DNA from: Bacilli bacterium
GTDB taxonomy: Bacteria; Bacillota_I; Bacilli_A; RF39; UBA660
Direction: 5' to 3'
Assembly (NCBI GenBank): GCA_017887885.1
Contig: JAGHHB010000090.1
Span: 1-37,889, forward strand
DNA: 37,889 bases
Shown: piece after piece, positions 13,520 through 33,710 of the stretch
Layout: each line of letters starts with the position of its first letter
Numbering within the stretch: position 1 is the stretch's first letter
Position numbers and translations under genes: made by a program
Notes under the pieces: generated by a model
The model's input: only the letters and a program-made list of their open reading frames with translations
What the model was told of the DNA's origin: nothing
Databases searched by the model: none

Positions 13520-13556
13520 CACAAAAAACTCTCTACATATAGATAAAGAGCTTTTT
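13520..13556 (-). terminator. Terminator after the T4SS coupling protein gene
   Basis: aaaaactct...agagcttttt hairpin at the end of the cluster. Confidence 0.5.
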
Positions 13557-15705
13557 AATAATCATCTGAGAAAAAGTCATCGAAAAAGGCATCATCATCG
13601 GTATTATCTTCATATAGCTGTTCAGATACTTCTTTGTTATTTTGCAAAATTTCTTTATGATCTTCTTCTTTGATATTTGCTTTATCAGGAATTATTTTTT
13701 CAATCGTATCTCGATTTGGTATTAAGTCTTCAACCTTTGTACTTTCATCACCAGTCTTGTCTTTTTGAGCATCGTTTTCTTCTTTTTCTATTGCCGCTAT
13801 TTTGGCATCTATCTTCTTAACCAATTCATCAATGTTAAAAGTATCACCTTTAGGTTTAGAAATATTATTATTTTGAGAAAAACCATTCTTAAAAGGTTCA
13901 CTTGCATAACTAGATGAAAAATTACCTCCAAAAAGATTAGAATTCATAAAAGGATTATTGTTCATAAAAGGAGAACTTAAATTATTTTGAAAGTCAGGTG
14001 TTTTCTCTTTTTTCATTTCTTTTACAAACTGTCTAATATCAAATAATTCGACAGGCTTTTTTTGGCGAGTTGTAGGTTCTGATTTTGGATAGGTCCGTCC
14101 CCAATCAACTTCAAAATCTGTTTGAAATCTTGTTTTATAAGGATATAGTCTTCTTCTTAAAATAATTATTTCAAATTTATTTAATCTCTGCAAATCGCTT
14201 ACAGTAACAAGAGGCGTAGAAGATGTTTTTTCTTTTTCTTTAGATTTTACTTCACCACACATCTTACTTATTTCCTCAAGCGCCGCTATTTCACTACTAA
14301 TAAGATAAACTAAATTACAATTACCACGAATGGTATCACCATTTTCTTTTCCATAAACTTGCGTAAGTTGAGCAAAATTTTGAATTATAAATGTAAAACG
14401 TATGTTTCTACTTCGGGCAGCTGTAACCATAGTTGTTACATCTTTAAGAGGCGGCATATTAGCAAATTCATCAAGTATAAAATTAGTTCTAAATGGTAAT
14501 TTGCCCCCAGATTCTTGAGCCACGTCAATAAGCGTCTCATAACACTGTTTAATAAAAATAGTAGCCAGAGGATGCAAAGTTTTCTTTTCATCTTGAACGA
14601 TTATATAGACAGCCGTCTTTTTTCTTCCAATATCTTGCATATCAAAATCTGTATAAGAAAGCATTTCAGATAAATTTTCACGTGAAGAAAATATCTTTAT
14701 TTTCTGTTTGAATGTCGAAATAATTCCTTGCTTTGTCTCATCAGTTGTGAATACTGTACCAGAAGCATTGACATAAGCAGGTTTAGAGGGATCCTTACTA
14801 TTAAAATATTCTTTTATATAGTTATTGTTAGGTCCCATAAACCTTTCTTCACCTAAACTACTCATAAGATTAACACTATTTAAATTAATCTGTTCTGGTG
14901 TTCCATCTTCAAATAAACCTAATGATAACCCTGAAAAATAGTCCGCTGCGGTATTATTCCAAAAAGGATCAGAACTTTTTTGTTCGTCATGTAATATATT
15001 TATAGCTAGATCATCTAACAATTCTATCGCTTTATCAGAATTGCCTTCTTTATATAAACGATATGGTAAACTCATAGGATTCCAAGCATTTCCCTGTTGA
15101 GGATTTCGGAAATTTAAAACTACGATATTATATCCTGCTTCCTTAAGTATTGCTGCTGTTTCTTCGTATAATTCACCTTTAGGATCAGTCATAATCATTG
15201 ACTCACCGTGTTTGGCAAGTAACTTTATCATTGGTTTAGCCACAATAACCGTCTTACCAGAACCAGTAGATCCCATAACTAGATAGTGATCTTCACCATT
15301 ATCAACCCACATTTTACCTTTTTTACTATAAAGTGGTATGCCTGCAGCCGAAAGACTAGAATCTTTAATATTTACTTCTTCTAATCCAGATTTAAATTCT
15401 TTGTCAGTTGCCCATCTGGAATATCCTTTTTCTTTTTTAGCACCAACAGAAAAGCCAAAGCCCTTATCACGATCAAAAATATATGATTTTACAGCGAAAA
15501 ATAATCCTATTAAGGAACCTAAAAAAAGTAACAATGTCATTCCAATATATTTTCCAGTAAATGCTCTAAATGGTGACAATCCATAAAATTTTCCCTCACT
15601 AGCTATACTAGAAGCATTTAATACTCCAATGGCACAAAGATATAACAAAAAAACACAAAATACAATAAATATTTTTAAGTCTTTTTTTTCTACCTTAATC
15701 TTCAT
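13555..15705 (-). CDS. virD4: Type IV secretion coupling protein, VirD4/TraG family, with Asn-rich and acidic C-terminal tail
   Basis: Two N-terminal TM segments, Walker A GSTGSGKTVIVAKP, TDPKGELYEETA, NFRNPQQGNAWNPM, Walker B FILDEFANMPPL, TAARSRNIRFTFIIQNFAQL. Confidence 0.93.
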   Translation of the reverse strand: MKIKVEKKDLKIFIVFCVFLLYLCAIGVLNASSIASEGKFYGLSPFRAFTGKYIGMTLLLFLGSLIGLFFAVKSYIFDRDKGFGFSVGAKKEKGYSRWATDKEFKSGLEEVNIKDSSLSAAGIPLYSKKGKMWVDNGEDHYLVMGSTGSGKTVIVAKPMIKLLAKHGESMIMTDPKGELYEETAAILKEAGYNIVVLNFRNPQQGNAWNPMSLPYRLYKEGNSDKAIELLDDLAINILHDEQKSSDPFWNNTAADYFSGLSLGLFEDGTPEQINLNSVNLMSSLGEERFMGPNNNYIKEYFNSKDPSKPAYVNASGTVFTTDETKQGIISTFKQKIKIFSSRENLSEMLSYTDFDMQDIGRKKTAVYIIVQDEKKTLHPLATIFIKQCYETLIDVAQESGGKLPFRTNFILDEFANMPPLKDVTTMVTAARSRNIRFTFIIQNFAQLTQVYGKENGDTIRGNCNLVYLISSEIAALEEISKMCGEVKSKEKEKTSSTPLVTVSDLQRLNKFEIIILRRRLYPYKTRFQTDFEVDWGRTYPKSEPTTRQKKPVELFDIRQFVKEMKKEKTPDFQNNLSSPFMNNNPFMNSNLFGGNFSSSYASEPFKNGFSQNNNISKPKGDTFNIDELVKKIDAKIAAIEKEENDAQKDKTGDESTKVEDLIPNRDTIEKIIPDKANIKEEDHKEILQNNKEVSEQLYEDNTDDDAFFDDFFSDDY

Positions 15706-15861: not shown

Positions 15862-16524
15862 TTATACCTTATTTTTTTTCTTTGCAATAACTCGCAATAC
15901 CAAGATTATAATAATTAGTAGTAAAAAGACACCAGCTACTAAAACAGCAGGGTTAATTGAAGGATTTATTTTTTCAGAAAAATCATTATCGATATTTAAA
16001 ACAATATTTATTTCACTATCTCGATAATTTTGACGATTAATATTCCATGTATATTTGTTTTTGTGAACACTATCGGCAGTCGATGATTCAACTTCAAGAT
16101 CAGTTGTTAAATTTATAGTTACGGAATCTAGTTCTTCATATTTATCAAAACATTTAAATTCTTTACTAGTAGCAATGATAATTTTATTGTTGTCTTTAAT
16201 CATTTTATATAGATCATAACATTGAGAAAATGATAATGAATAGTCGTTATATTCTGAAATAGTATAATTTTTTTGATATGACATTCCAAAAGTATTATTT
16301 CTATTTATAACAGAAGATTGATATAGCCCTAGACTATTTGTAGGACCTGTATATTTGTTTACTAAATTATTTACAGATCTTTCAATACTATCTTGAGAAA
16401 CTCCAGGAAGAAAAATGATATTATCTTCTTTAACAGTATTTTTTGTTATTTCAACATTATATTCAAAGGTACATCCCGTCAATAATAATAGTAAAATCAA
16501 TAATAGACCGTATCTTCTTTCCAT
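15862..16524 (-). CDS. Lipoprotein with additional C-terminal TM segment
   Basis: Lipobox LLLTGC near the N-terminus and C-terminal PAVLVAGVFLLLIIIILVLRVIAKKKNKV. Confidence 0.75.
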   Translation of the reverse strand: MERRYGLLLILLLLLTGCTFEYNVEITKNTVKEDNIIFLPGVSQDSIERSVNNLVNKYTGPTNSLGLYQSSVINRNNTFGMSYQKNYTISEYNDYSLSFSQCYDLYKMIKDNNKIIIATSKEFKCFDKYEELDSVTINLTTDLEVESSTADSVHKNKYTWNINRQNYRDSEINIVLNIDNDFSEKINPSINPAVLVAGVFLLLIIIILVLRVIAKKKNKV

Positions 16525-16532
16525 AGTTCCTC

Positions 16533-17843
16533 CTATTCAACCATATAAATGTATCCTAAAAACTTATAACCGGAAAAAATAGACGAAATGCTACCTACCG
16601 TTGTATCAGTATATGATATATGTGATTGATATCTAAATCCATATGGATTGGATTGTGTCTTCACCGAACTGATATTAGCTTCACTATAATCAAGCGTCCC
16701 ATCGTCATTAACTTTTTCAACAACACCAACATGTCCAAATTGGCCAGATTCCCAGACAATAATCGCTCCAGGTTTAGGATTATTAACATCAGTACTATAG
16801 GCAAAGGCTTCATCACCTAAATCAATATTATATTGCAACCAAAATTTAGCATCAGGAGCATATTTCCACTTCAAATCAGATCCAGCTTGAGCAAGTATTT
16901 CATTAGCTCTTCCAAAAGCATACCATGTACATTGACCTACAAAACCGGCACTATAAGACAAATTATTATTAGAAAAGTAAAATTCGTCATCATGAGAGTT
17001 TCCCTGTACAGGCATATTTGTTCTAACCGTAAAATTTTTACTACTTGCCGATAAACCTGAAGAATATCCATAACTTCCTCCTAGTACTCCGAGTTGGACA
17101 CCTGGCGAATAAAAATAGTTTAAAATATAATCATAAGTTTTTCCTTGATTAGCAAGTTCATATGAAGCAATTTGACTCATTCCACGTCCATGACCACCAG
17201 CTATCATATTGGTATACTTATTACTTACTGTTACTTTGTGTTTTTCATTATTAGGAAGTTTAGTATAAGTTACGCTGCAGCCGTTAGAATCACAACTATA
17301 ATCTCCACCTCTATAAAATGAATCATATTCTGATAGAATAATTTCTGAATTATATGTTAGTACTAAACCTTCGGTCGCACTAGCTGCCGTTCTGGCGGCA
17401 TCGGTGATATTAGTAGTAAAATTTTGAGCAGCACTACTATTATTTATTGGTGACTGACAATAGTTAGTTCTAATAATGGCGTATGACCTAGCCGCTATTG
17501 CTTGGGCTTTTAAAGCCTCAATACCTTCACTATTATAAGCTTCAGCACTCACAACACCTGCCACATATTCTTCTAAAGAATAAGCTTTATTATCTACAAT
17601 TATTGTTTCACACTCTTTCTCAACTTTTTGTAAATAAGTGTTTGGTGAGTATCCAATGCCACTAGTTTGCGATCCTGCTCCTTCTATATCAATAATCCCT
17701 AAAACCATAAGAGGGATAATAAGGACAATTAAAAAGATAATATTAGATACGACAAAGGAAACAATTGTCATTATTATTATTCGTCTTGCTTTTAATAATA
17801 TTTTGGCTATGCCACTATTCTTATTACTTTTTTGTTCATCCAC
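16533..17843 (-). CDS. T4SS-associated peptidoglycan hydrolase: TM + SpoIID-like domain + CHAP domain
   Basis: SpoIID motifs EEYVAGVVSAEAYNSEGIEALKAQAIAARSYAI and GGHGRGMSQIASYELANQGKTYDYILNYFYSPGVQL; CHAP motifs GQCTWYAFGRANEI and GHVGVVEKVNDDGTLDYSEAN. Confidence 0.9.
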   Translation of the reverse strand: MDEQKSNKNSGIAKILLKARRIIIMTIVSFVVSNIIFLIVLIIPLMVLGIIDIEGAGSQTSGIGYSPNTYLQKVEKECETIIVDNKAYSLEEYVAGVVSAEAYNSEGIEALKAQAIAARSYAIIRTNYCQSPINNSSAAQNFTTNITDAARTAASATEGLVLTYNSEIILSEYDSFYRGGDYSCDSNGCSVTYTKLPNNEKHKVTVSNKYTNMIAGGHGRGMSQIASYELANQGKTYDYILNYFYSPGVQLGVLGGSYGYSSGLSASSKNFTVRTNMPVQGNSHDDEFYFSNNNLSYSAGFVGQCTWYAFGRANEILAQAGSDLKWKYAPDAKFWLQYNIDLGDEAFAYSTDVNNPKPGAIIVWESGQFGHVGVVEKVNDDGTLDYSEANISSVKTQSNPYGFRYQSHISYTDTTVGSISSIFSGYKFLGYIYMVE

Positions 17844-17868: not shown

Positions 17869-19653
17869 CTATAATCCTCCGCCCGAACCGAATGACTCTA
17901 ATTCTTCTTCTGTAACCATAACATTTATCTGCATTCTTCTATTACCACACACAAATAATGCTTCTCCCTGACTAAATCTTTTTATCCCCTCTTTTTCATT
18001 ATCATTTAAGTCTATCAACATTGATAAATCTTCAACTGATTGTTTTTTTAATCCCATCACTAAATAATATGAAGAATTATCAAATATTGCTTTACCATGC
18101 ATCAAAATACCATCTGCCACAAAATCGGATGGCTGCTGTGTTATAATAATTGTTCCAGTATTATACTTTCGTGCTCTTCTTTGAACTTGAGCTAAAAATT
18201 CAGCCCCAAGTTCGTTTTTAGCTCCAAGTAGTACATGCGCTTCATCAACAGATAAGACTGTATTTACATGAGGATTTAAACAAAGGCCCCAAGCAAATTT
18301 GAGTACATTAAACAAAAGCGCATTTCTAATATTTGCATCAGAATTCATAAGTTCTTTAATGTTGAAAACAAGAAAATCACTATCAGTATTTATCGAAGTA
18401 TGACCATTAAAGTAATACTGAAGTTCTCTTACAAAAGGTCTTAACTTTAATTCTAATCTTTCCATAACATCGCGTTCATGAGTTTTTTCGGTCATTGAAG
18501 TTAATTTACTAGTTACTGTTATATAGACATCGCTAAAGGTTGGAAAATTTTGTGATGTCAATCTCGAAAAATCTGATGTAAAAGTTATACCAAATCTGGC
18601 ATAAGTATCTTGCACTATTTCACTAAATAATGTCAAAACATCTTCTTCAATATCAGGTGAATAGTACTTCATAAAAGCTTTTAATGACTGCAAAGTCTTA
18701 TTAAGAACAGTATATCCTAATCCGCTTCTGATTTCATCTTCATCGGCATCCATTATCACCTCAAGCGGATTTACCATGCCAAATTCTCCACCTTTTCCTA
18801 AATCAATTACATCGCCGCCATACATCCTTGTCATTTCACTAATCTCACCTTCAGGATCGACCGCTACAATTTGATATCCATTTCTAATATGACTACGAAG
18901 TATTAATTTAGCTGCTGTCGATTTACCACTTCCAGAAGTTCCTAAAATAATCATATTAGCATTATTTCGGTTATTTTCTTTCTTTAGTTGAAATAAAAAC
19001 TGGTTAAATAAGACGACACCTCCGGAAAAATCAACACCAAGCAGTGTAGATAATCCGTCATCTTTAATACTATCAAAAATAAAAGGATACATAGCTGCCA
19101 TCGTAGGTGAAGGCATAGGCGTTCCTATTCTTGTCTCAATAGGTTGCTTATCAAATATTGGTAAAATTGATTTTAACACTCGCTCTTGTTCAAAACGGAG
19201 TGGAATAGCACGCATCTGCATTGCATCCATATAGTTTTTTAAATTTACTTTTTTTATTTCTAAAGCCTCCCGAGTGTCAGCGGTCACCATAATATGCATT
19301 TGAAAATCGAAAGTTTTAGCTTGCGTGGAAGTAAACTGTTGAATAAAATATTCTAAAGAATCAACATCTTGCCTTATTCTTTCTTGAATAGTACGATCTC
19401 TTTCTTGCTGATATCTACTTTTTAAATCAGCAATTTCTTTATTTAACATTTTAGCAAGAACAGAAAAAGGAAGAGGAATGTGTTTAATTACCAATTTAAC
19501 ACCAGACATATTAGTCAAATTAGACAAATAACCTGAACCAATAAATCTCGGATACGAAATAACAGTTAATATAGTGGCATAGCGATCACTTATTACAAAA
19601 TCAGCTGGATTAAATTGCAATCCTTTAGGAGCTAATTCACTTTTTAAATTCAT
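17869..19653 (-). CDS. virB4: VirB4/TrsE-family conjugation ATPase, C-terminal portion with P-loop
   Basis: Walker A ILGTSGSGKSTAAKLILR, Walker B TVLSVDEAHVLLG, VQRRARKYNTGTIIITQQPSDF; N-terminus DRYATILTVISYPRFIGSGYLSNL matches a mid-VirB4 region. Confidence 0.93.
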   Translation of the reverse strand: MNLKSELAPKGLQFNPADFVISDRYATILTVISYPRFIGSGYLSNLTNMSGVKLVIKHIPLPFSVLAKMLNKEIADLKSRYQQERDRTIQERIRQDVDSLEYFIQQFTSTQAKTFDFQMHIMVTADTREALEIKKVNLKNYMDAMQMRAIPLRFEQERVLKSILPIFDKQPIETRIGTPMPSPTMAAMYPFIFDSIKDDGLSTLLGVDFSGGVVLFNQFLFQLKKENNRNNANMIILGTSGSGKSTAAKLILRSHIRNGYQIVAVDPEGEISEMTRMYGGDVIDLGKGGEFGMVNPLEVIMDADEDEIRSGLGYTVLNKTLQSLKAFMKYYSPDIEEDVLTLFSEIVQDTYARFGITFTSDFSRLTSQNFPTFSDVYITVTSKLTSMTEKTHERDVMERLELKLRPFVRELQYYFNGHTSINTDSDFLVFNIKELMNSDANIRNALLFNVLKFAWGLCLNPHVNTVLSVDEAHVLLGAKNELGAEFLAQVQRRARKYNTGTIIITQQPSDFVADGILMHGKAIFDNSSYYLVMGLKKQSVEDLSMLIDLNDNEKEGIKRFSQGEALFVCGNRRMQINVMVTEEELESFGSGGGL

Positions 19654-20219
19654 TATGATATCACCGTCCCGAAATTAGTAGTCATTCCACTATTAAGAAA
19701 ATTATCTAATATTATTCTCAAATCATCATTGGAAACTTGTGATGATTCTAAACCAGCATTGGCAAGTCCAGTCATTAATGTTCTTAAACGTTTTTGAATA
19801 AGATCATCATTTTTTTCCTTAAATAAAATATAATACTCTGTATCAGTTATGTTATTACTCATGAAATCATTAGCTTTATTAATATCTTGATTAATAAGTT
19901 TTCTAATAGCGGGACTAGTAGTTTGATTATATAGCAATTGAAGACGAGCTAAATAGCTATTCAAATCAACAGGACGATCTGCTGAAATTAGCCAAAACTC
20001 AAAATCAATAGAATTATAAAAATTTTTTAATGCTATAATAGTGTTATCCTGTGCTGCTTGATCTAATATAAAAATATTTCTTGGTCTAATTTTGACACCG
20101 GTCACTTTTAACTTATTATCAAGAACAATAGTTCCATTAATGATGGATTTTATTGGTATCCAATCTTCTGTATATTTAGAATTATTTTTTTTCGTTTTCG
20201 TCAACTGCGAATTTTTCAT
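19653..20219 (-). CDS. VirB4/TrsE N-terminal domain encoded as a separate gene
   Basis: EDWIPIKSIINGTIVLDNKLKVTGVKIRPRNIFILDQAAQDNTI... ends before the mid-VirB4 region and overlaps the next ATG as TAATG. Start trimmed to the internal ATG at 20219; the upstream ATG at 20243 is an alternative. Confidence 0.75.
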   Translation of the reverse strand: MKNSQLTKTKKNNSKYTEDWIPIKSIINGTIVLDNKLKVTGVKIRPRNIFILDQAAQDNTIIALKNFYNSIDFEFWLISADRPVDLNSYLARLQLLYNQTTSPAIRKLINQDINKANDFMSNNITDTEYYILFKEKNDDLIQKRLRTLMTGLANAGLESSQVSNDDLRIILDNFLNSGMTTNFGTVIS

Positions 20220-20511
20220 AAAAACACCAACCCTTCCATACATAGTTTCTTCTTTCCGAGAAAAATTTAATAATACTTTGCAGAGCACACATGACGTTAT
20301 GATAATTGGGAATAGGAATTACTAAAAATCCCGTTATTCCTACAGGAAGACAAGAAATAATCATGAGTGAAGCATTTTCTGAAGGAACAATTACGAATAA
20401 AAGTAAAGTCGTCAAAATTCCCGCTCCAAATAAGATTAAATCAAATGGTCGAAATAAGTTAAATATTAGTGTTCCTCGTTTTGCATTAGCAGGAACTAAA
20501 TATCCATTCAC
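20182..20511 (-). CDS. prgI: PrgI-family T4SS membrane protein (VirB3-like)
   Basis: 109 aa, YLVPANAKRGTLIFNLFRPFDLILFGAGI followed by two hydrophobic segments, directly upstream of VirB4, as in Gram-positive conjugation operons. Confidence 0.75.
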   Translation of the reverse strand: MNGYLVPANAKRGTLIFNLFRPFDLILFGAGILTTLLLFVIVPSENASLMIISCLPVGITGFLVIPIPNYHNVMCALQSIIKFFSERRNYVWKGWCFYEKFAVDENEKK

Positions 20512-20531: not shown

Positions 20532-22514
20532 TTAATTTCCTCTTTTATCATATTTAGCATTCGCTTTGGCCTGTTCATATTTTTCATAATCACTACCTCC
20601 AGCTCCGCTAATGTTATTAATTCCTTTTTTGACGGTATCTTTATATGTCTTAAAAGTCGTCGCTCTAGCAGTTCCACTTATAGAAGTATCGATAAGAGAA
20701 TCACCTGCAAGTTCTCCATAACCATTTTCAATGCCTTTGCTTCTTATTGCTTCAGCATTCTTCATCTTAATTATAACGTTATCCGTATCTACATTACGAG
20801 TCAAATGGTCTGCTAAAGCAACTTCTTTTGCATGCTTAATGTTATTTTGAGCAGCTTCAATATCTTTAGCTGTAACGTTTTGTGTTATACTTTTATAAAC
20901 AGGTTTACCACCTTGTGTTATAGGTTTTCCCGTACTCTTATTAATCATTTGAGACCTTTTTGTAATTTTTCCGGTTTGCATCATGGAATCTAAAGCCATT
21001 TGCGCAGCCATAACTCTTGGATCCTTTTCAATTTCTTTATCAACATCACTTAATGCATCCTGATAATTTTTAAGGAATTGTAGTTTGTGCTCAAATTCTT
21101 CTTTTCTTCTAGTTGCAGTACTAGCACCGAGATGTCTTCCCCAAAAAGTGGAGTCGTCATTTTTTCTTTCGTAAGCTCTATCAGCAGCTTTTCTTTGCTT
21201 ATTCATAGCGTTTTGAACATTTTTAAATACGCCACCACTTGTTCTGGCTCCTATGAGTCCTCTTCCAAGTCCACTAATAGCTCCCGCAACTTTTCCTCCA
21301 ATTCCATTACCTCTTTTGATGCCAGTAGCAGCTACTGCACCTGCACCAATTAGAGCTCCTGTGCCAAATGTAAGTGCGCCTTTAACTTCCTTGCTAGGTT
21401 TTAAGCCCATGCTAAAACTTGCAACGCCACCACCAAGATTAGGAAATAAATCTTTTAAAAGATCTGGTACTTTTTTAGCAAATAAGAGAAGGCCAACAAC
21501 TAAAAATATTTTTACCCAATTCTTTGTCGCCGTCGAAATATCTCCTAAACTTAAAGATAAAATACTTTTTGAAGAAGAAAGCGCTTCTAAAACATAACTA
21601 GATAAATTGACAATAAAATAAATTAAAGCTAATCTAATAAACAAATCTAAAAAAGTAGTTGTACATTGTTTAATCCATTTTTTAAATGCCCCATCTGGAT
21701 CAGATATATAAGAAAGAATAGGAACGGGGGCAATTAATTGCAAATAAGCTAATTGAAAGACTCTTATAGCAGCCTGGAAACAATACATGAAAAGCATCCA
21801 TAAAACGGCACCACCTACTAATAACATAAAAATTTCATTGAATTCAATAGTATATTCACCATTTCTTTTATAAACAAGAAATCTTTCAGCATACCCAAAA
21901 TTTTCTGTTCCGTCATTTATTTTATTTTTAATTGAATTAATTTGAGTCTCCGTAAGATCAGCCTCTCCTTCTTCAGGATCAACTCCTTCACTCAAAAAAG
22001 GTTCCAGTTCATCTTCATAAAAAGAAAAGTATAACTCTGAAGAAAGTACTCTTCCAAAAGTCGTGCTATCTCCTCGCGGAGAATCACCGATAATTAATTT
22101 ATAAAGAACATTGTCACCATTATTTTCATTACCAATTATCAAATTTTGAATATCGAAAGCTTCTCTAAAAATAGTGGGAGTTATTCCAAGTAGCACTATA
22201 GAGAAAATACACCTACCAATTATTTTTCCAAAACCATTTTTTTGATCAGATAATTTATTTGGATCAATTAAGGCCTGAATAAGAGTAAAAGTGAGTTTAA
22301 ATAACATGAATAATCCTAATATCATTCCTACTCTTTGATATACAGCCTGTACTAAATCATTATCTAAAATTTCTGCTCGTGAAATATACATAAATAGATC
22401 ATAAATATTGATAATTAAGTTGTAAATTAGAGTTGCAATTCGGCCAATAAGAATTCTAAAAGCATGCTTTATTGCACTAGCAATATCTCCCATTAAGCTT
22501 AATGTATAAATCAT
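20532..22514 (-). CDS. VirB6/TrbL-like polytopic T4SS membrane protein with charged C-terminal region
   Basis: Multiple TM segments, AIRVFQLAYLQLIAPVPILSYISDPDGAFKKWIKQCTTTFLDLFIRLALIYFIVNL, Gly-rich linker and basic cytosolic tail. Confidence 0.82.
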   Translation of the reverse strand: MIYTLSLMGDIASAIKHAFRILIGRIATLIYNLIINIYDLFMYISRAEILDNDLVQAVYQRVGMILGLFMLFKLTFTLIQALIDPNKLSDQKNGFGKIIGRCIFSIVLLGITPTIFREAFDIQNLIIGNENNGDNVLYKLIIGDSPRGDSTTFGRVLSSELYFSFYEDELEPFLSEGVDPEEGEADLTETQINSIKNKINDGTENFGYAERFLVYKRNGEYTIEFNEIFMLLVGGAVLWMLFMYCFQAAIRVFQLAYLQLIAPVPILSYISDPDGAFKKWIKQCTTTFLDLFIRLALIYFIVNLSSYVLEALSSSKSILSLSLGDISTATKNWVKIFLVVGLLLFAKKVPDLLKDLFPNLGGGVASFSMGLKPSKEVKGALTFGTGALIGAGAVAATGIKRGNGIGGKVAGAISGLGRGLIGARTSGGVFKNVQNAMNKQRKAADRAYERKNDDSTFWGRHLGASTATRRKEEFEHKLQFLKNYQDALSDVDKEIEKDPRVMAAQMALDSMMQTGKITKRSQMINKSTGKPITQGGKPVYKSITQNVTAKDIEAAQNNIKHAKEVALADHLTRNVDTDNVIIKMKNAEAIRSKGIENGYGELAGDSLIDTSISGTARATTFKTYKDTVKKGINNISGAGGSDYEKYEQAKANAKYDKRGN

Positions 22515-22532: not shown

Positions 22533-24101
22533 CTAAAATAAACCGCATGTATCAGGTGATATAATACCCCAAACTTTATTAGCTATATTTAATATTATAT
22601 TAACTATAGTTGGGACAAAAAATATTAGTATAGCTATACCGAGTCTTTTGATAAAATCTTGTTGTGCTTTTTTCATATTTTCTTCGGTTCCAGCAAAAAC
22701 AGCTTTTGCAAAATCAAAGATCCCAAATCCTATTAAAATTATCGGAATAACAATTTTCACAATATCTAAATATGAATTAATCTTATCCACTAATTCCTGA
22801 CCCAATAATCCCTCACAATCAATGATAACGGATATTCCACGACCACCCGCTATTGCTTCATATTCTTTTCTAACATCAGAAGTATCCTCGCTATTTAAAC
22901 CATAATCATCAGAATATTTGTCTAAATACGATGAACATCTTACGAGTTTTTTTAATTCATCATCAGTAAGTTCTTTTATATTAGGAAAAGCATCATATTC
23001 ATTGAGCATTTTAGAAACATCATCTGCAACAAGCTTAAATACGGTATTATCAACAGCATCTAGACCTCCCAACAAATTAACAAAGGCACAATTAGTAGCC
23101 GAATTAAGAGCTAAAGCTGACGATTGATTAGAACAAAGTTTATATTCTGTAGTATTATTATAAACATTATTGATTATAGGAATAGCTCCCGATAGATCAT
23201 TTAACATATCATGAGCCGTATAATCACTAAAAAATTGATAGCCTCTGCTCTCTTCCATTTTACTATTAAAAGCATCACAAGTGTAAAGAAGTTTATTATA
23301 ATCTTTTTTTAGTGAATTGTAACTTTCATTTTCTTTCAAAATTACCTCAATATTGTCATTATACCAATCATCTACAGCAGATTTAAGCTTACCCTTGTTA
23401 TCACCACTATCAAATATTATTTCTATTGATTTTGAGTATCCACTTTCAGGTACTCGTCCAGATGATATTATATATTTAGGAGTAAAATTAAAAGTATTTC
23501 CTAATCTAAAAAAATTTTCTCTAAAATTGATTGCATCTTTTGATATAAGATTATATTTATCTATATAAGCTGGCTCTCCCCATTCTGCCCTTGAAGCAAG
23601 ATGAACAAAATTACCATTATAATCATAATACTCTACCATTATAGAAGAATAGTCAGTAAAATTATTGTCAGAATGATTGTATAAATAGAAACTATATTGA
23701 TTTTCTTCCATTCTAACAGCCTTTATAGTTTCACCGATCCCAGCTAAAACCCTATTATTACCTTCTTTAGATTTTCTTATCTTTTCAGGACAAACACCAT
23801 TGGCTAGTTGTGAATTAGAATTATAATTATCCCTTGTATCACACCATTCATCCATCTCTTCAGAATCTTGAAACCAACACCAATCAACCTTATATATTTT
23901 ATTTCCATCAGGGTCAAGAAAATACCATACAGTTCCTATATTAGTATCACTTCCTTCTGTACCGCGAAAAAAAATCCAGTTACCTTCTCCTTCATCAGTT
24001 CTTTTACATTCTAGATACATCACCGGACCATCGGCCTTAACAATATTAATACCAATAAATAAAAATATGGAAATTAGAATTAATTTATATATTTTTTTCA
24101 T
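22533..24101 (-). CDS. Exported protein with large Cys-containing ectodomain and C-terminal VirB2/TrbC-like pilin domain
   Basis: Signal peptide; C-terminal IPIILIGFGIFDFAKAVFAGTEENMKKAQQDFIKRLGIAILIFFVPTIVNIILNIANKVWG aligns with the neighbouring 132-aa protein. Confidence 0.78.
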   Translation of the reverse strand: MKKIYKLILISIFLFIGINIVKADGPVMYLECKRTDEGEGNWIFFRGTEGSDTNIGTVWYFLDPDGNKIYKVDWCWFQDSEEMDEWCDTRDNYNSNSQLANGVCPEKIRKSKEGNNRVLAGIGETIKAVRMEENQYSFYLYNHSDNNFTDYSSIMVEYYDYNGNFVHLASRAEWGEPAYIDKYNLISKDAINFRENFFRLGNTFNFTPKYIISSGRVPESGYSKSIEIIFDSGDNKGKLKSAVDDWYNDNIEVILKENESYNSLKKDYNKLLYTCDAFNSKMEESRGYQFFSDYTAHDMLNDLSGAIPIINNVYNNTTEYKLCSNQSSALALNSATNCAFVNLLGGLDAVDNTVFKLVADDVSKMLNEYDAFPNIKELTDDELKKLVRCSSYLDKYSDDYGLNSEDTSDVRKEYEAIAGGRGISVIIDCEGLLGQELVDKINSYLDIVKIVIPIILIGFGIFDFAKAVFAGTEENMKKAQQDFIKRLGIAILIFFVPTIVNIILNIANKVWGIISPDTCGLF

Positions 24102-24206: not shown

Positions 24207-24236
24207 AAAGAAAACTCTAGCTTTTGAGTTTTCTTT
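24207..24236 (-). terminator. Rho-independent terminator after the VirB2-like gene
   Basis: Perfect 11-bp stem aaagaaaactc (24207-24217) / gagttttcttt (24226-24236), 8-nt loop, minus-strand T-rich tail. Confidence 0.8.
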
Positions 24237-24260: not shown

Positions 24261-24659
24261 CTATTCAGCTTCACCAGTTCCAGTTTCACCAGTTATTTTT
24301 GTATATACACATTTATCATTTGCTTCGCCTTTACTTAATATACAGTTCCAACAACCACGCCAATCGCTTGTTCCTTCAAGCTGCTCTTCTTCCCCACTGA
24401 AAAGAGAAGTCGCAAAACTTAAAACTAATTGAACAATCCAAACAACAGCGAAAACTAAAACAGCATATATAAGTCTTTTAATAAAGGCAGATCTTGCTTT
24501 TTTAACTTCATCTTCTTTACTTGCTATAACGGCTTTTCCTAAATCGATCATTCCAAGTATTATAAGGATTATAGGAATACCTATTTTTATGGCCTCAATG
24601 GCATAACCTATCAAAGTCATAACTGGCCTTAATTCTTGTGCGCAAGCTAATACATACAT
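24261..24659 (-). CDS. VirB2/TrbC-like pilin-type protein
   Basis: 132 aa with two TM segments: IPIILIILGMIDLGKAVIASKEDEVKKARSAFIKRLIYAVLVFAVVWIVQLVLSFATSLF. Confidence 0.75.
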   Translation of the reverse strand: MYVLACAQELRPVMTLIGYAIEAIKIGIPIILIILGMIDLGKAVIASKEDEVKKARSAFIKRLIYAVLVFAVVWIVQLVLSFATSLFSGEEEQLEGTSDWRGCWNCILSKGEANDKCVYTKITGETGTGEAE

Positions 24660-24715: not shown

Positions 24716-25738
24716 TCATTTAAAAAGATTAAATAACTTATTTATTTTTTTTTCTTGTTTTTCTGGACCTACAATTTCCTTTATATAACCTAACTTTTCT
24801 AATAAAGGAAGTAATATATTACTACAATCTTTTTTGTCATTTAGAGGAGGAATATTATAATATATCTTTAAATCTGTCTCTATTTCAAAATCTGCAATAT
24901 CCTCTTCATTAAGTAGACTTTTATTTAAAATAACTTTCTTATCCTTTAGTTCTATGAATATATTATTATTTATTAAAACCAACTCATTCAACTTTATAGT
25001 ACTAGGTTCTATTAAATATAAAACATCTGTACAAATATCTTCACACTTTGATTTATTCAAATCAATTATAAAGATATCAACAGCGCTATATTTAGCTAAT
25101 GTTTCGTTTAATTCATTTTCTTTTATCGAAAGTGAATCTTTATCTTTTAAATAGGTAAAATCTCTTTTATTTAATTCAAGAGACATTACTCTATAATAAT
25201 CATTTAATACTTTTCTTAAAAGGTATACTAAAGTAGTAGCCCCTGCAGAGTCAGTAACATTTTTTATACCTAATATTTTGTAGCGGTGGTCAGTTTGAGA
25301 GATCGCCGCAGAGTTATCAGAAGGAATATTTCCCGAATCATCGTCCTCTAAATCTTGCAAATAAGCAACATCACGATATATATTGGGATGCTTATAAAGA
25401 TGCATAAGACTATTTTTATCTTTAGTAAAATTATATATACCTATACTGACTAATTTCGACAAGAATTTTTGAGAATCACTTATTTGATCATCTTTATCTA
25501 ACAGTAAAATTACTTTATCCATATTGATATTCATAGATAATTTCTGTAAATTAGCGATATTTTTATAGTCATCAATAGCAGTTATATCTAAAAACATCCT
25601 ATTAAAGAAGAAATTACCAAACTTTTTGATTATTTCATCAACAGTAAAAACTCCTTCGATTTTTTTAGACACTTCGATATTTAATGAACTCAAAACGTCG
25701 TTATATTTATTAGCTATTACTGTATCCAATATAATCAT
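24716..25738 (-). CDS. CpaE/TadZ-like protein with degenerate P-loop
   Basis: N-terminal receiver-like region followed by KILGIKNVTDSAGATTLVYLLRKVL at the ParA/MinD Walker-A position; lies inside the Tad module. Confidence 0.6.
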   Translation of the reverse strand: MIILDTVIANKYNDVLSSLNIEVSKKIEGVFTVDEIIKKFGNFFFNRMFLDITAIDDYKNIANLQKLSMNINMDKVILLLDKDDQISDSQKFLSKLVSIGIYNFTKDKNSLMHLYKHPNIYRDVAYLQDLEDDDSGNIPSDNSAAISQTDHRYKILGIKNVTDSAGATTLVYLLRKVLNDYYRVMSLELNKRDFTYLKDKDSLSIKENELNETLAKYSAVDIFIIDLNKSKCEDICTDVLYLIEPSTIKLNELVLINNNIFIELKDKKVILNKSLLNEEDIADFEIETDLKIYYNIPPLNDKKDCSNILLPLLEKLGYIKEIVGPEKQEKKINKLFNLFK

Positions 25739-26175
25739 CCTTTCAAATTTGTGATTCTTCTTGTCTCACCAGTAATAGGTATCGTAAAACTCAAATTAAA
25801 AAACGGAAAATCTAATTTGACAAAGGTTGTAACTTTATAATAAGTTTCGTCTGCTCCATAATTATTTACAGTAGCGGGCTCTTCTATACAGTAGCCTTCG
25901 TCAAAACAAATACCATATTTGTCATCTTTATTTTCACTTAATCTGACATAGTAGCTAACTGATCTTAAATAATCATTAACTTGACCTAAGACAGAATTAT
26001 CTCCAACATCTGTATAATCTTCTATTCCCTCATTTTGTTCAATGATATCTATTATTCGATTTTTAACTCTAAATGCTTTGGCATAATTTAGAGCTACCGC
26101 TATAAAAACTATATAAACGGCAAGAAAAACTAATAATACATTAATCATAAATGTTCCACCAACGGCATCTCTCAT
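25735..26175 (-). CDS. TadE-like pseudopilin
   Basis: MRDAVGGTFMINVLLVFLAVYIVFIAVALNYAKAFRVKNRIIDIIEQ: short N-terminus then one TM helix, followed by a small ectodomain with CFDEGYC. Confidence 0.65.
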   Translation of the reverse strand: MRDAVGGTFMINVLLVFLAVYIVFIAVALNYAKAFRVKNRIIDIIEQNEGIEDYTDVGDNSVLGQVNDYLRSVSYYVRLSENKDDKYGICFDEGYCIEEPATVNNYGADETYYKVTTFVKLDFPFFNLSFTIPITGETRRITNLKG

Positions 26176-26209: not shown

Positions 26210-26371
26210 TTATTCAGTAGTTACACCAGTATTTTTTTCAAATGTATCTCTAATCCATTGTCTTCCTATAGAATCATCACCTGCAAATAACCAAGTTCCT
26301 ATTCCTAACACTAGTGCTAATATAACGATAGTAATTACTGTCATTGAAACTTCACCTGTTGCTTCTTTCAT
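26210..26371 (-). CDS. Flp-like major pilin candidate, 53 aa (not in the supplied ORF track)
   Basis: Reads MKEATGEVSMTVITIVILALVLGIGTWLFAGDDSIGRQWIRDTFEKNTGVTTE*; AAGGTGAG RBS; lies between TadC-like and TadE-like genes. Confidence 0.72.
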   Translation of the reverse strand: MKEATGEVSMTVITIVILALVLGIGTWLFAGDDSIGRQWIRDTFEKNTGVTTE

Positions 26372-26428: not shown

Positions 26429-27217
26429 TTATACAGAAACGAGCATAAAAATTGAAATCAATAATAATATTAGTGACCCTCCACCTGTGACAACCATCAT
26501 AATCATGGTCTTATTTTCCATCTTATTAAGTCTAGCTTGATATTTTTGTTCTCGAGCTTTAGCTTGCAAAGATGAAACAGATTTAGAAAAGGAAACTAAT
26601 TGTTGATGTTTCTTTTCTTGTTCACCTAATCCTAATCTATATAATAATCTCATCATTCGCATTGAATCTCTTACAGGATAATCATTAGCAAAATCCATAT
26701 ATGGATCAATACTTGAATCACCTTCTTCGATTCTTTGAACTAATTTTTTTAGTCCCGGCTTAAACACCTCTGGAGCATCATCAATGCTCTTGGCCAATGC
26801 TACAGGAACAGTGTAATGATGAATTAATACTTCTAATGTCTTTAAATAATATGGCAGCAATGAGTCAATATAATTTAAATGCTGACGATACCATTTTTTC
26901 AAACTCAAATATTGATTTTTATATACTAAAAATCCTACAACTAATCCTGCAATCACTGTTAGATAACTCATTTGCGATAGAAATAAGAATATTAAAGCTA
27001 TTGCAACTAACACACCATTTCGGACTCGTTTCATGAATACTTCATTTGGATTATATACTCGGTCACCATATTTAGCTATTAAAAGAAAATCATAATCTTT
27101 TTCTTTTAATAAGTTACACAATTTATCATTATTACTAAATACTCCATTTTTATCAATTTTTCCATTAACAATAAATATATATATTACTATTATGGCTATT
27201 ATTAGCATTTCTATCAT
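26429..27217 (-). CDS. tadC: TadC-like inner-membrane platform protein
   Basis: GspF-like ALAKSIDDAPEVFKPGLKKLVQRIEEGDSSIDPYMDFANDYPVRDSMRMMRLLYRLG; start trimmed from 27271 to the ATG overlapping the tadB stop (TAATG). Confidence 0.78.
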   Translation of the reverse strand: MIEMLIIAIIVIYIFIVNGKIDKNGVFSNNDKLCNLLKEKDYDFLLIAKYGDRVYNPNEVFMKRVRNGVLVAIALIFLFLSQMSYLTVIAGLVVGFLVYKNQYLSLKKWYRQHLNYIDSLLPYYLKTLEVLIHHYTVPVALAKSIDDAPEVFKPGLKKLVQRIEEGDSSIDPYMDFANDYPVRDSMRMMRLLYRLGLGEQEKKHQQLVSFSKSVSSLQAKAREQKYQARLNKMENKTMIMMVVTGGGSLILLLISIFMLVSV

Positions 27218-28119
27218 TATTCTGCACCTACATTCTCGTTGTAGTATTTTTCTCCCGAAAGAAGAAACCAACTGTTTATAATAACAATAGCATGAATAAT
27301 TATTTTAATAAAGGTATTATCTAACATGGCTATATATGTCTCTGAACTAATAAGAAGCTGAATAAGAGCAATCATTCCATATAGGGCTATTCCAAAAGTT
27401 AAAAACTGTTTATGAAATCTTGCTCTTTCACTTCGATCTCGATAGACGCCTTCAACTAGAATATCTATATCCGATAACATATTCTCAAATGTTCCTTCCG
27501 TATCTTTGGCACCTTCTTTAGTTACTTGTAAGAACAATTGATGCATATTTTTTACCATATAATAAGGATATTTAGTGTCCATATATTTTATGGAATCATA
27601 AATGTCACCTTTTTCATAAGATAAAGCAATCATCGTTTTGACATCTGACAAAACAGGTTCTTCTAAAACTCCAGACTCCGCAACACCTTCAAGTGATTTG
27701 ACAAAGGCTTGAGTCGTAGCAAATTCCATTATGGTATTTGTACAGTAAACTTGAACTTGTTCAAATATATATTCACTATATTGTCTTTTACAACGTAAAT
27801 AAGTTATATAAGGAATAAAAGAGACTGCCAGGATGGCATACACTATGGTAACCACCAAATTATAGAAATACAAGTAACTAATAACACCAGCAAGACCAGC
27901 AAAGATAATTACCTGAAATAAATATTGTATAGGCGTATATTCTAGTCCTAAATCTTTTACTCTTTCACGCATTACTTTAAAGGAGTATGGCTCAAACTTT
28001 TTATATGTATTAATCGCTTGTGTAGAGATAAATTTATATACTGATTCACCTCTTTTGGTACGATAAGATACTATAAATATTATTATTACACCAATTAAAA
28101 TTATTTCCATTAATTTCAC
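27217..28119 (-). CDS. tadB: TadB-like inner-membrane platform protein
   Basis: 300 aa polytopic protein between CpaF-like and TadC-like genes; VQVYCTNTIMEFATTQAFVKSLEGVAESGVLEEPVLSDVKTMIAL. Confidence 0.75.
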   Translation of the reverse strand: MKLMEIILIGVIIIFIVSYRTKRGESVYKFISTQAINTYKKFEPYSFKVMRERVKDLGLEYTPIQYLFQVIIFAGLAGVISYLYFYNLVVTIVYAILAVSFIPYITYLRCKRQYSEYIFEQVQVYCTNTIMEFATTQAFVKSLEGVAESGVLEEPVLSDVKTMIALSYEKGDIYDSIKYMDTKYPYYMVKNMHQLFLQVTKEGAKDTEGTFENMLSDIDILVEGVYRDRSERARFHKQFLTFGIALYGMIALIQLLISSETYIAMLDNTFIKIIIHAIVIINSWFLLSGEKYYNENVGAE

Positions 28120-28124
28120 CTACC

Positions 28125-29444
28125 TTACTTAAAAGTACGATCATTCATACTTGATATATTAACAGGTCTTGGATTTGATTGATTCTGGGCATAGATATTA
28201 GGAATCTGATTATTCACTTCATTTCGATACTGACTTGAACTACTATTTATCTGATTTTGATAAAAATGAGAACTTTGATGATTAGAATGATTTACTGAAA
28301 ACAATGCGGAATTATCTAAAGACTTATTACTATTATCAACAACAAAATTGTTATTTTTACTTTCGGATACTTTATTTAAATCCGTAAACTCTTCTTTAAC
28401 TAAAATATCATTTGGCATTATAACACCTTGACTTTCTAAATAACCAATTAAATATTTAGAAGGATTAGCAATTGATTCTTGACCTTCAGGTGTTTTTTTA
28501 TAAAGAATTTTATATTTAGCCTCATTATCATCAGTTACATAAAATTCTACTACCTCTGAAACTTCACGATGAAACCTTTTATATTTTTGACTATAATAAC
28601 CTTTAATATGAACACCTAATTGAACATAACGATGAATTGTTTTTAAAAATTGTTCTATATCAATATTTGTTTCAAGTAAACTATACATTCTATTAGGAAT
28701 CGATTCTGCTTTATCGGCATGAATAGTCGATAAAATGTTATGTCCTGAAGAAATGGAATTGCGGACAGCCATAACAGCTTCCGCTGATCTTACTTCGGAT
28801 AGTAAAATCCAACGTGGATTCTGGCGCATACAAGTAACTAAAACATCAGAATAAGAAGCAATATTATTTGTCTTCATAGCAACAATATCTCTATGAGGAA
28901 AAATTCTATCTAGATGAAGTTCAAGAGTATCTTCAATAGTTATTAATTTTTCACTTTCTTTAGTATGTGCCGCTAGATATTTGACAAATTCAGTTTTTCC
29001 CGATCCAGTTTCACCACTTACAATTATATTGCAGTGTCCTTCAACACACTTGAGCAAAAAATCATGAATATTTAATCTAATATAATCTTCAGCTATTATC
29101 TTATCCTTTTGTAATCTTATTTTAGCGGGTGTCTTTCTTATTAGAACTGCAATGCCATTTTTAGCTATCGAATCGTGAACAAAATTCATTCTTAATTCTG
29201 CAGATTCAGCATCGAGAAAGGGATTGGCCATATTGAAGGATTTACCCATAGAGTTAGCACATTGAAAAGCTATTTTCTCCATGAGTACATTATTTATACC
29301 TGTATTTTCAACACGATAAACACCTTGTGATAATGATTTTAACCAAACTTGACCACCATTACTATAAGAAATATCCGTTATGTCATCGTTATCTAAAAAT
29401 ACTTTTAATGGGCCAAAATCGACTTGAGTAAATTCAGTTTCCAT
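28125..29444 (-). CDS. cpaF: CpaF/TadA (VirB11-like) secretion ATPase with Asn/Ser/Gln-rich C-terminal tail
   Basis: Walker A IIVSGETGSGKTEFVKYLA, ITIEDTLEL, TCMRQNPRWILLSEVRSAEAV, ILSTIHADKAESIPNRM. Confidence 0.93.
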   Translation of the reverse strand: METEFTQVDFGPLKVFLDNDDITDISYSNGGQVWLKSLSQGVYRVENTGINNVLMEKIAFQCANSMGKSFNMANPFLDAESAELRMNFVHDSIAKNGIAVLIRKTPAKIRLQKDKIIAEDYIRLNIHDFLLKCVEGHCNIIVSGETGSGKTEFVKYLAAHTKESEKLITIEDTLELHLDRIFPHRDIVAMKTNNIASYSDVLVTCMRQNPRWILLSEVRSAEAVMAVRNSISSGHNILSTIHADKAESIPNRMYSLLETNIDIEQFLKTIHRYVQLGVHIKGYYSQKYKRFHREVSEVVEFYVTDDNEAKYKILYKKTPEGQESIANPSKYLIGYLESQGVIMPNDILVKEEFTDLNKVSESKNNNFVVDNSNKSLDNSALFSVNHSNHQSSHFYQNQINSSSSQYRNEVNNQIPNIYAQNQSNPRPVNISSMNDRTFK

Positions 29445-29461: not shown

Positions 29462-30292
29462 TTACTGGTCATTATCAGTAGTATTTTCTTGTACTTGATC
29501 ACTGATATTTGGCAAATCATCTACTGAAACTAATACAGTCTTACTATTAATAAAGTTTTCAATATCATTACTGCTTACAGTTACTTTGTCCTCTTCTGAT
29601 AAAGTGGCTGTATTTGGTATTAGGATTAATTCTACGTCATATTCATCTAAATATAAAGCTTTTCTTAATAGCAAGTGTGTCTCTTCAGGTACAGCAAATA
29701 GCATATATGCTGGCGTTCGAGTTTCTTCACTGTTTTCAAAAACATGTTGTCCTGATGAATCTTTAACATCTAATACTTCAATATTACTGATAAATTTGCC
29801 AAACATGATTTCGCCATCATCATTTAGTGATTTATAATAAATATTGATGTGGCTACCCGGAGCCATAGAATTAGCATAAGTACTAGCAATCGTTACAGGA
29901 TAATTAACGACCGTATACCCTTCAGGAACATCTGAAAAAGCTGAATCTGGAAGTTCTTCTTCGGTAACTACTAGATCAGTATAAAAGATACTTCCTTTAG
30001 CGATAATAGTATTAAAATTAGAATACTTTCCAATAATATTATTAACGTTTGTATAATAATCTCCGACAAGGAATGATTCAGGAACATTCATTGTACCGAC
30101 CATATCTTTTGTAATGTAGGTTCTTGGTTGAATTGTAGTTTTGGCATAAGGAATAGCCACTAACTTGACAGCCGAATTAATTCGGTAGTTATAACCAATA
30201 TATAATATTACTAAACATAATATTACCCCTAGTATGGTAACTGTATTTTTATTACCAAAAAATTTTTTCATTGAAGCTTTTAAATTATTCAT
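29462..30292 (-). CDS. cpaB: SAF-domain protein, CpaB/RcpC-like
   Basis: N-terminal TM, VAIPYAKTTIQPRTYITKDMVGTMNVPESFLVGDYYTNVNNIIGKYSNFNTIIAKGSIFYTDLV is a SAF/CpaB pattern. Confidence 0.85.
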   Translation of the reverse strand: MNNLKASMKKFFGNKNTVTILGVILCLVILYIGYNYRINSAVKLVAIPYAKTTIQPRTYITKDMVGTMNVPESFLVGDYYTNVNNIIGKYSNFNTIIAKGSIFYTDLVVTEEELPDSAFSDVPEGYTVVNYPVTIASTYANSMAPGSHINIYYKSLNDDGEIMFGKFISNIEVLDVKDSSGQHVFENSEETRTPAYMLFAVPEETHLLLRKALYLDEYDVELILIPNTATLSEEDKVTVSSNDIENFINSKTVLVSVDDLPNISDQVQENTTDNDQ

Positions 30293-30321: not shown

Positions 30322-31236
30322 CTAGCTTACATATTCGTATTCTTCATATGACCATGTTATATCAAATTTTATGGCTGCTGCCTTTTTGGATGTATCTGTA
30401 GTAGTTCCACTCCATTTGATCCAATAATCATATTTACTGCAGTCACTACCAGTTAATTTTTCATCACTTTGTGAGCAATTTTCAAATAATATTTTATTAT
30501 TATTTTTTAAAGTTAAGTTGCCGACCATATCATTAAGCGAAAGTAAATAATTTGTGCTATTTACTTCAATATCCGGATAGTCAATTTCCCTTTTTAGTAA
30601 AGCTATATTTAGTTCTGTTTGGGTAGTAATTAGTCCCCTATATTTGATATCTTTAATAATAACATTTCTAATATTACTTCTATTAAGTTCGTCTGGCATG
30701 TTTATAGGTTTAGAATCTACACCCGCATTATTTCCTACCAATGATGGTATTGAATAATATGTCGTTGTCATAGTCTTTTTAGTATAAGGATTATTATAAT
30801 GGCTATCTGTACTTGAAACATCAGTATACTTACCATAATATTCTAAAATGGCATCTAATTTATTGACGACATTATAATCTAGCTGTTCGCCATTTAATCT
30901 ATAATCGTTGGTACTATTCCTAACTTCTATCGATACTTTGGGAGGTGTTTCTATTATGTCATAAAAATTTATCGTATATCCACTTCCAACTAATATTGTT
31001 GATTCAGCAAATCTTCTAGTAAAATTTTCAACAAACTTTTCAGTAATTATTTTTAAATCACCCGTTTGACGATAATAAGAAATGTCGATAGCATCGATCA
31101 TAGAAGCCTCTGTTATCTCTTTTAACAAATAATAATCTCGTTCATTGCTAGTTGTAATCTGTTGAAAAAGTAAAATTATGCCAACACCGGTAATACCTAA
31201 AATTATAATACCTAAAGTTAAAAAGGACCACTTCAT
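30322..31236 (-). CDS. Single-TM exported pilus-associated protein
   Basis: N-terminal hydrophobic helix FLTLGIIILGITGVGIILLF, long ectodomain; 4-bp ATGA overlap with the upstream gene. Confidence 0.6.
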   Translation of the reverse strand: MKWSFLTLGIIILGITGVGIILLFQQITTSNERDYYLLKEITEASMIDAIDISYYRQTGDLKIITEKFVENFTRRFAESTILVGSGYTINFYDIIETPPKVSIEVRNSTNDYRLNGEQLDYNVVNKLDAILEYYGKYTDVSSTDSHYNNPYTKKTMTTTYYSIPSLVGNNAGVDSKPINMPDELNRSNIRNVIIKDIKYRGLITTQTELNIALLKREIDYPDIEVNSTNYLLSLNDMVGNLTLKNNNKILFENCSQSDEKLTGSDCSKYDYWIKWSGTTTDTSKKAAAIKFDITWSYEEYEYVS

Positions 31237-33008: not shown

Positions 33009-33038
33009 TTTTTCCTCCTTTGCTAATTTATTTAATAT

Positions 33039-33710
33039 TTATTTTAATATTTTTCTTTTTTTATCTTTCGAAGTTATAAGTATAATAGAAATTATTAATA
33101 GAATTACCCCCAATGTAATTAGTAAGAAAATTTTATATTCAGAAATAAAACTTAAAACTTTATTTAAAATACTTTCATCTTCTTGCTTTTTTTCTTGGTT
33201 ATCTAAATTATTTTGCAAACGATAAGATGTTACTTTCTTTTCAAATGTCTCATAATCGACATCATATTTATAGTATTTCCCACAAAGGGGAAATTCTTCA
33301 TCATCGATGCCTTCACATAATGGATCCAAAGAATAAATGTTAAAGCGTGGAAGATTTACTTCAATATCGCTTATCTTGATTCCACATTTAGATGAGAAAA
33401 CTTGATAATGCCATGTTCCAGTAGTCAAATTTATTTTAAGACTATCATCTTCTTCAATAAAATCTTCGGTAGCAAAAGGACTTAAATGAATATAAAAATC
33501 GTCATAAATATTACTAGTAACTACTAAAAATTTATTATGTACTTCCACATTATTTTCTTTAATAACTCCCAAATGTTCGTATGTTATTTTTATTTTACTA
33601 GCTTCTTTTTTTAAAGTTTCTATTTCTTCATCACTACACTGTGCTCGAACACAAGAAAAATCTAAACAAGTTACAATAGCAATAAGTATTAAACATTTGA
33701 TTTTTCTCAT
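33039..33710 (-). CDS. Exported protein with C-terminal TM anchor
   Basis: Signal peptide, four Cys in the ectodomain, C-terminal FLLITLGVILLIISIILITSKDKKRK. Confidence 0.6.
   Translation of the reverse strand: MRKIKCLILIAIVTCLDFSCVRAQCSDEEIETLKKEASKIKITYEHLGVIKENNVEVHNKFLVVTSNIYDDFYIHLSPFATEDFIEEDDSLKINLTTGTWHYQVFSSKCGIKISDIEVNLPRFNIYSLDPLCEGIDDEEFPLCGKYYKYDVDYETFEKKVTSYRLQNNLDNQEKKQEDESILNKVLSFISEYKIFLLITLGVILLIISIILITSKDKKRKILK

Follow-up and report, generated by a model that had tools for sequence, protein, structure and literature searches.

The locus described here raises the question of why a protein should join a large, apparently secreted domain to a pilin-like membrane hairpin, and what such a protein might do beside the genes of a secretion machine. 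The window (the whole stretch of DNA analysed, 37,889 nucleotides, from assembly GCA_017887885.1 of a Bacilli bacterium) encodes on its minus strand a 522-aa protein (22533-24101), recognized from its ORF and by sequence comparison as a fusion of a signal peptide, an ectodomain and a C-terminal VirB2-like hairpin. The neighbouring ORF encodes a 132-aa short VirB2-like protein (24261-24659, minus strand) which has no signal peptide and in which C6 and C103 bracket the hairpin. VirB2 has been reported absent from Gram-positive type IV secretion systems (T4SSs) except those of Patescibacteria, where VirB2 arrays made up of small pilins occur (PMC12857230, PMC12102498). A preliminary description had likened the last 65 or so residues of the larger protein to the smaller one, and had proposed the fusion as a tip adhesin or capping subunit.

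The gene cluster and its distribution

The two genes belong to a chromosomal cluster (13555-33710) in which Tad-like and T4SS-like genes are syntenic, and whose order is kept across the family. All genes listed here lie on the minus strand. The first are those for a 223-aa membrane-anchored protein (p223), a 591-aa exported protein and a DUF5411 protein (together 30322-33710), followed by an RcpC/CpaB-like protein (29462-30292; a weak match, under cut-off), a TadA/VirB11-type ATPase (28125-29444; a clear match to PF00437, T2SSE), and TadB-like and TadC-like membrane proteins (26429-28119) assigned by position, without a Pfam match. Next come a Flp-like type IV prepilin of 53 aa with a prepilin-like motif (26210-26371; MKEATGEVSMTVI...), one or two TadE-like pseudopilins (in the window 25735-26175; from sequence and position, without a Pfam match), a TadZ-like protein (24716-25738; by position, again without a Pfam match), one to three short hairpin proteins and the extended hairpin protein. 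The last portion encodes a VirB6/TrbL-like polytopic protein (20532-22514; PF19597, NF045848, NF045889), a VirB3/TcpE/PrgI-like small membrane protein (20182-20511; weak TcpE match), a split VirB4 consisting of an N-terminal part (19653-20288; NF045975) and the VirB4 ATPase (17869-19653), a SpoIID and CHAP cell-wall enzyme that is VirB1-like by position (16533-17843), a putative lipoprotein (15862-16524) and a VirD4/TraG coupling ATPase (13555-15705; PF02534). The Flp-like prepilin, which falls below a 60-aa ORF cut-off, is conserved in two related loci (L054 and L065); its presence beside the VirB2-like genes means that the cluster encodes two pilin types. No relaxase is annotated in the window; a search of 11 genomes from the genus detected PF03432 in a single one, other than the window's own. 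The surroundings, which include SufB, a YunB-like protein and other genes of housekeeping type, give the locus the look of a resident chromosomal system, and the Tad-T4SS cluster resembles a resident hybrid machine.

The hairpin module is near-universal in the family and all but missing from the rest of the phylum. It occurs in 183 of the 193 genomes of the order sample, all of them from one family; in the class sample its sole match outside the family lies in a genome whose contamination is 5% (G467), on a contig of 2.3 kb, and the phylum sample yielded one marginal match (E=7e-5). Plasmids and phages gave no matches. Among the ten family genomes that lack the module, VirB4 is missing in seven and divergent (33% identity) in one, and TadB is missing in nine. 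Short forms are present in every in-family genome examined closely (41/41). Extended or fused forms were seen in 34 of these 41, a lower bound since the count is based on fetched contig regions.

A hairpin module common to both proteins

The resemblance of the two C-termini is real and longer than first described. BLASTP aligned residues 463-511 of the 522-aa protein with residues 39-87 of the 132-aa protein at 45% identity (E=1e-10), and the similarity spans ~90 aa instead of 65 because it takes in the Cys residues that precede helix 1 and follow helix 2. In an HMM-HMM alignment with hhalign, a profile of 39 extended forms matched one of 63 short forms with a probability of 99.9% and E=1.4e-34, as against E≥0.046 for all of 20 column-shuffled control profiles; comparisons among short, extended and enzyme-bearing hairpins gave E=1e-30 to 1e-34.

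The module opens with a Cys, followed after about 20-25 aa by helix 1 with its conserved Pro and Gly, a D[FL]xKAV motif and a loop, acidic and then lysine-rich; a KR, helix 2 with FxP, and a terminal Cys complete it. Cys occupies the two corresponding alignment columns in 136 of 139 and 135 of 137 sequences, and the inter-helix loop measures 21-25 aa in 140 of 140 aligned modules. Lys and Arg together average 5.8 in this loop versus about one in each outer flank, a distribution which by the positive-inside rule places both ends of the module outside the cell. In the 522-aa protein the module comprises residues 429-519 (22545-22817, minus strand), between C429 and C519. Single-sequence AlphaFold2 models predict a two-helix hairpin in both proteins, rather than an unrelated polytopic fold, with helices at residues 3-45 and 49-90 of the short protein (pLDDT mostly 84-90) and 435-470 and 473-511 of the fusion (pLDDT about 69-82 over most of the hairpin). 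The features of VirB2-type subunits are thereby present: two TM helices and, by the charge rule, a basic loop on the cytoplasmic side and both ends outside. Judged by these comparisons, the two window proteins contain one and the same module, a predicted hairpin of two helices whose basic loop has a fixed length and which is framed by a near-invariant Cys pair.

Profile matches further suggest that this module is related to the Pfam family T4SS_pilin (PF18895): of 37 representative modules, 21 hit that profile at E≤0.01 (best E=5e-8). A fused relative (L150:9604-10875) scored 39.1 bits, over the curated cut-off of 26.6; the 132-aa window protein reached 17.4 bits, under that cut-off, and the 522-aa protein gave no match to this profile. 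Foldseek found no significant match to the short protein in the PDB, and no solved structure proved close to the module in sequence or fold. The N-terminus of the window's VirB6 aligned with the hairpin at a suggestive E=1.5e-4, though one of the shuffled controls did far better; a similarity of this type is reportedly shared by CedA1 and CedA.

A rapidly diverging ectodomain

The N-terminal remainder of the fusion conforms to its preliminary description as a signal peptide and a long ectodomain (~410 aa). A putative type-I signal peptide (aa 1-23, MKKIYKLILISIFLFIGINIVKA|DG; 24033-24101, minus strand) was recognized by eye and by a heuristic scan, and the fast-evolving ectodomain comprises aa 24-428 (22818-24032, minus strand). 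Homologues of the latter were detected within the genus only. Searches of Pfam and NCBIfam gave no match above cut-off, a PDB search returned nothing significant, and no enzymatic signature was apparent; the corresponding part of the AlphaFold2 model was unusable (pLDDT about 40). A C...CP repeat domain noted by eye in other ectodomains was considered, and no link to that of the window was established.

Divergence was gauged by comparing the window with its closest sampled relative (G006). Values of dN were 0.02 for VirB4 and 0.02-0.22 for the majority of the remaining genes. Within the fusion, the hairpin gave 0.16 and the signal peptide with the ectodomain 0.73. VirB6 stood at 0.53 overall and 0.29 in its N-terminal 380 aa, so that it changes rapidly beyond its N-terminal membrane part. 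Estimates of dS lay at about 0.9-1.9, with saturation in the hairpin. No other part of the locus evolves as fast as the ectodomain. Against two other relatives (L051 and L054) its similarity falls to the level of shuffled sequences, both carrying a different, duplicated domain; VirB4 is 91-98% identical to that of other members of the genus, the figure for L054 being 93% and none being available for L051. Variability of this kind would fit an exposed, partner-facing part of the protein. As a separate observation, the VirB4 ATPase is 98% identical to that of G006 despite a dS of about 1.2.

Position beside virB6

In 32 of 37 distinct virB6 loci, the gene directly upstream of virB6 encodes an N-terminal extension followed by the hairpin (a hand tally that includes one locus, L033, truncated where its contig stops). 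At its shortest the extension is a signal peptide with some 15 further residues, at its longest about 570 aa, and in 21 of these loci it exceeds about 95 aa. Several loci have merely a signal peptide and about 15-40 aa, and in five (L068, L096, L104, L111 and L152) the adjacent gene is a short form only or another gene intervenes; these cases imply that the machine can do without a large ectodomain. A tree of hairpins (90 columns) is clustered by architecture, with 35 changes versus 92.7 on shuffling; the virB6-adjacent forms do not make up one clade (at least nine changes are forced) and are hence not simply one old orthologue.

In classical systems, the genes of VirB5 tip proteins sit directly upstream of virB6. 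VirB5 is the pilus tip protein and docks on VirB6 (PMC12857230). The 522-aa protein resembles VirB5/CagL-type tip proteins in its predicted secretion, its variability and the placement of its gene; it differs in having a membrane hairpin built in and in lacking a VirB5 profile match in Pfam or NCBIfam.

The hairpin attached to other domains

Modules of the family occur in three architectures: the short form, the signal peptide-ectodomain-hairpin form, and the hairpin followed by a C-terminal domain. The C-terminal domains include VanY (L144, 2.4e-15; L036, L141), peptidase S11 (L143, 2.4e-9), C39-like peptidases (L145, 4.9e-10; L137, L148, L150, L136, L058), CHAP (L146, 7e-11), GDSL (L056, L038), an esterase/S9-like domain (L142) and a weak GH99-like match (L147); in L034 a Flg_new repeat (7.9e-10) precedes the hairpin. 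The window's own genome encodes a third hairpin protein, with a CHAP domain (7.5e-11), on another contig (L135:8064-9086, the same as G000:C65:13063-14085). Its gene adjoins a paralogue of the lipoprotein gene of the cluster. Genes for hydrolase-bearing forms are dispersed in genomes, and one genome (G065) has 13 genes of the hairpin plus C-terminal domain type (loci L137 and L141-L147), four of them in tandem. Extensions are found at the two ends of the module only, never within the inter-helix loop. To judge from these arrangements, the hairpin is a portable module.

Two minor points may be added. Pairs of hairpin-enzyme and lipoprotein genes recur in relatives, and the match in G467, outside the family, is the hairpin-C39 gene L136 on its 2.3-kb contig.

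Discussion

We favour, at a probability of about one half, the reading that the 522-aa protein is a specialised, low-copy subunit of VirB2 type, placed as VirB5 is, which displays its variable ectodomain at the tip of a VirB2-like assembly or elsewhere on it. It would have arisen as a specialised paralogue of the neighbouring short subunit. Exported by Sec with cleavage of its signal peptide, it would expose the ~410-aa ectodomain outside the cell and be retained in the membrane by the T4SS-pilin hairpin, with both ends out, the basic loop in the cytoplasm and the ends probably linked by a disulfide. VirB6 and VirB4 of the adjacent machine might then take up this hairpin as they would that of the short protein. 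A single copy, or a few, would come to lie at the tip of the VirB2-like assembly, or be sparsely scattered along it, where the ectodomain could touch a partner surface. Such a protein would in effect combine VirB2 with VirB5, and the same hairpin in its paralogues may place cell-wall hydrolases. On steric grounds, domains of this size would be expected to be few per filament. Solved F-pili have the ends of the pilin exposed on the exterior and its loop turned towards the lumen (PMC5018250); as the extensions of the hairpin are confined to its ends, this geometry supports the outward display of attached domains. The preliminary description was thus apt in seeing a pilin-type membrane module that carries a large secreted domain. 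Its "tip adhesin" is too narrow a term, given that the hairpin is also borne by peptidoglycan peptidases, CHAP, GDSL and other domains, which makes adhesion at most one use; for the 522-aa protein itself the idea is plausible but unproven.

The conserved position beside virB6 might also be expected of a membrane-resident assembly or scaffold protein, similar to VirB8 or VirB5, whose hairpin keeps the ectodomain on the VirB6 platform without polymerising, the short form perhaps being a channel component only. Large extracellular domains of Gram-positive T4SSs are usually membrane-anchored (PMC12857230). A generic TM helix would, however, suffice as an anchor, yet the fusion has kept the short form's residues, its loop length and its Cys pair, and a scaffold would not be expected to show as little conservation as this ectodomain; we regard this explanation as less probable. 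Still less probable is that the hairpin serves as a docking or sorting tag that takes cargo to or through the T4SS, the hydrolase forms, and perhaps the window ectodomain, being effectors or wall-remodelling enzymes. The dispersed genes joining it to CHAP, C39, VanY, S11, GDSL and esterase-like domains, 13 such forms in a single genome, and the VirD4 coupling ATPase would accord with such a role, but the 522-aa protein has a Sec signal of its own, which makes a T4SS unnecessary for crossing the membrane, and its ectodomain bears no sign of an enzyme. A generic two-TM anchor unrelated to any secretion machine, for which one might cite the module's weak, chance-like matches to unrelated TM families, is disfavoured as highly improbable by the profile similarity of E=1.4e-34 with controls near chance, by the T4SS_pilin match over cut-off in L150, and by the co-occurrence of module and machine across nearly the whole family.

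If the favoured reading of the 522-aa protein as a VirB2-type subunit is extended to the family, the T4SS-pilin hairpin could be a portable loading module by which the VirB2-like structure of a chromosomal Tad-T4SS machine is armed with adhesin-like ectodomains and hydrolases, a broader proposal that we advance tentatively and with somewhat less than even confidence. In type VI secretion, "evolved" Hcp and VgrG are structural proteins with fused effector domains; the likeness lies in a structural module that bears diverse enzymatic domains, both the proteins and the machine being unrelated. VirB2/TraA-type pilins (PF18895; archaeal CedA1/TedC) share with the window proteins two hydrophobic helices, a basic loop, ends directed outward by the positive-inside rule, and genes encoded with VirB6, VirB3, VirB4 and VirD4; the window fusion differs in its domain of several hundred residues and nearly invariant Cys pair, and its host in being, by inference, a monoderm member of the Bacillota; gene content makes a reduced lineage of low GC likely. 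The T4SS of Patescibacteria (Saccharibacteria) is likewise monoderm and chromosomal, with several diverged VirB2-like genes and mostly no relaxase (PMC12102498), whereas in the window family the VirB2-like genes and a Tad system share one syntenic cluster, and large domains have been fused to many of the VirB2-like proteins. Archaeal Ced and Ted are domesticated T4SSs with homologues of VirB2, VirB4 and VirB6 (PMC9905601), and Ced of Sulfolobales works with type IV-like Ups pili (PMC11868833), which parallels the pairing of Tad and T4SS genes here.

Our literature search found no description of fused VirB2 modules or of a Tad-T4SS cluster of the window type. If the assignment is correct, this would be a second Gram-positive lineage with VirB2 pilins, besides Patescibacteria. 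It would be marked by near family-wide conservation in reduced genomes, by synteny with Tad genes, and by the fusion of pilin modules to large outward domains that include wall hydrolases. A hairpin attached to many outward domains, beside a combined Tad/T4SS cluster, suggests a modular surface machine; it would offer a new way of decorating a pilus and a testable explanation of the means by which the T4SS of a monoderm might traverse the wall and identify its partners.

Two smaller features were also noted. A terminator-like stem-loop in the gap between the two window genes (24207-24236) was considered as a pilin attenuator and rejected, being present in 2 of 20 comparable gaps only. Extra genes occur among the short hairpin genes of four loci (L068:2247-3332, L067:8287-9351, L070:6381-7484 and L111:8572-9762); their products lack the hairpin and have an N-terminal TM helix and a pilin-like domain with NPYV or NPYI as its last residues.
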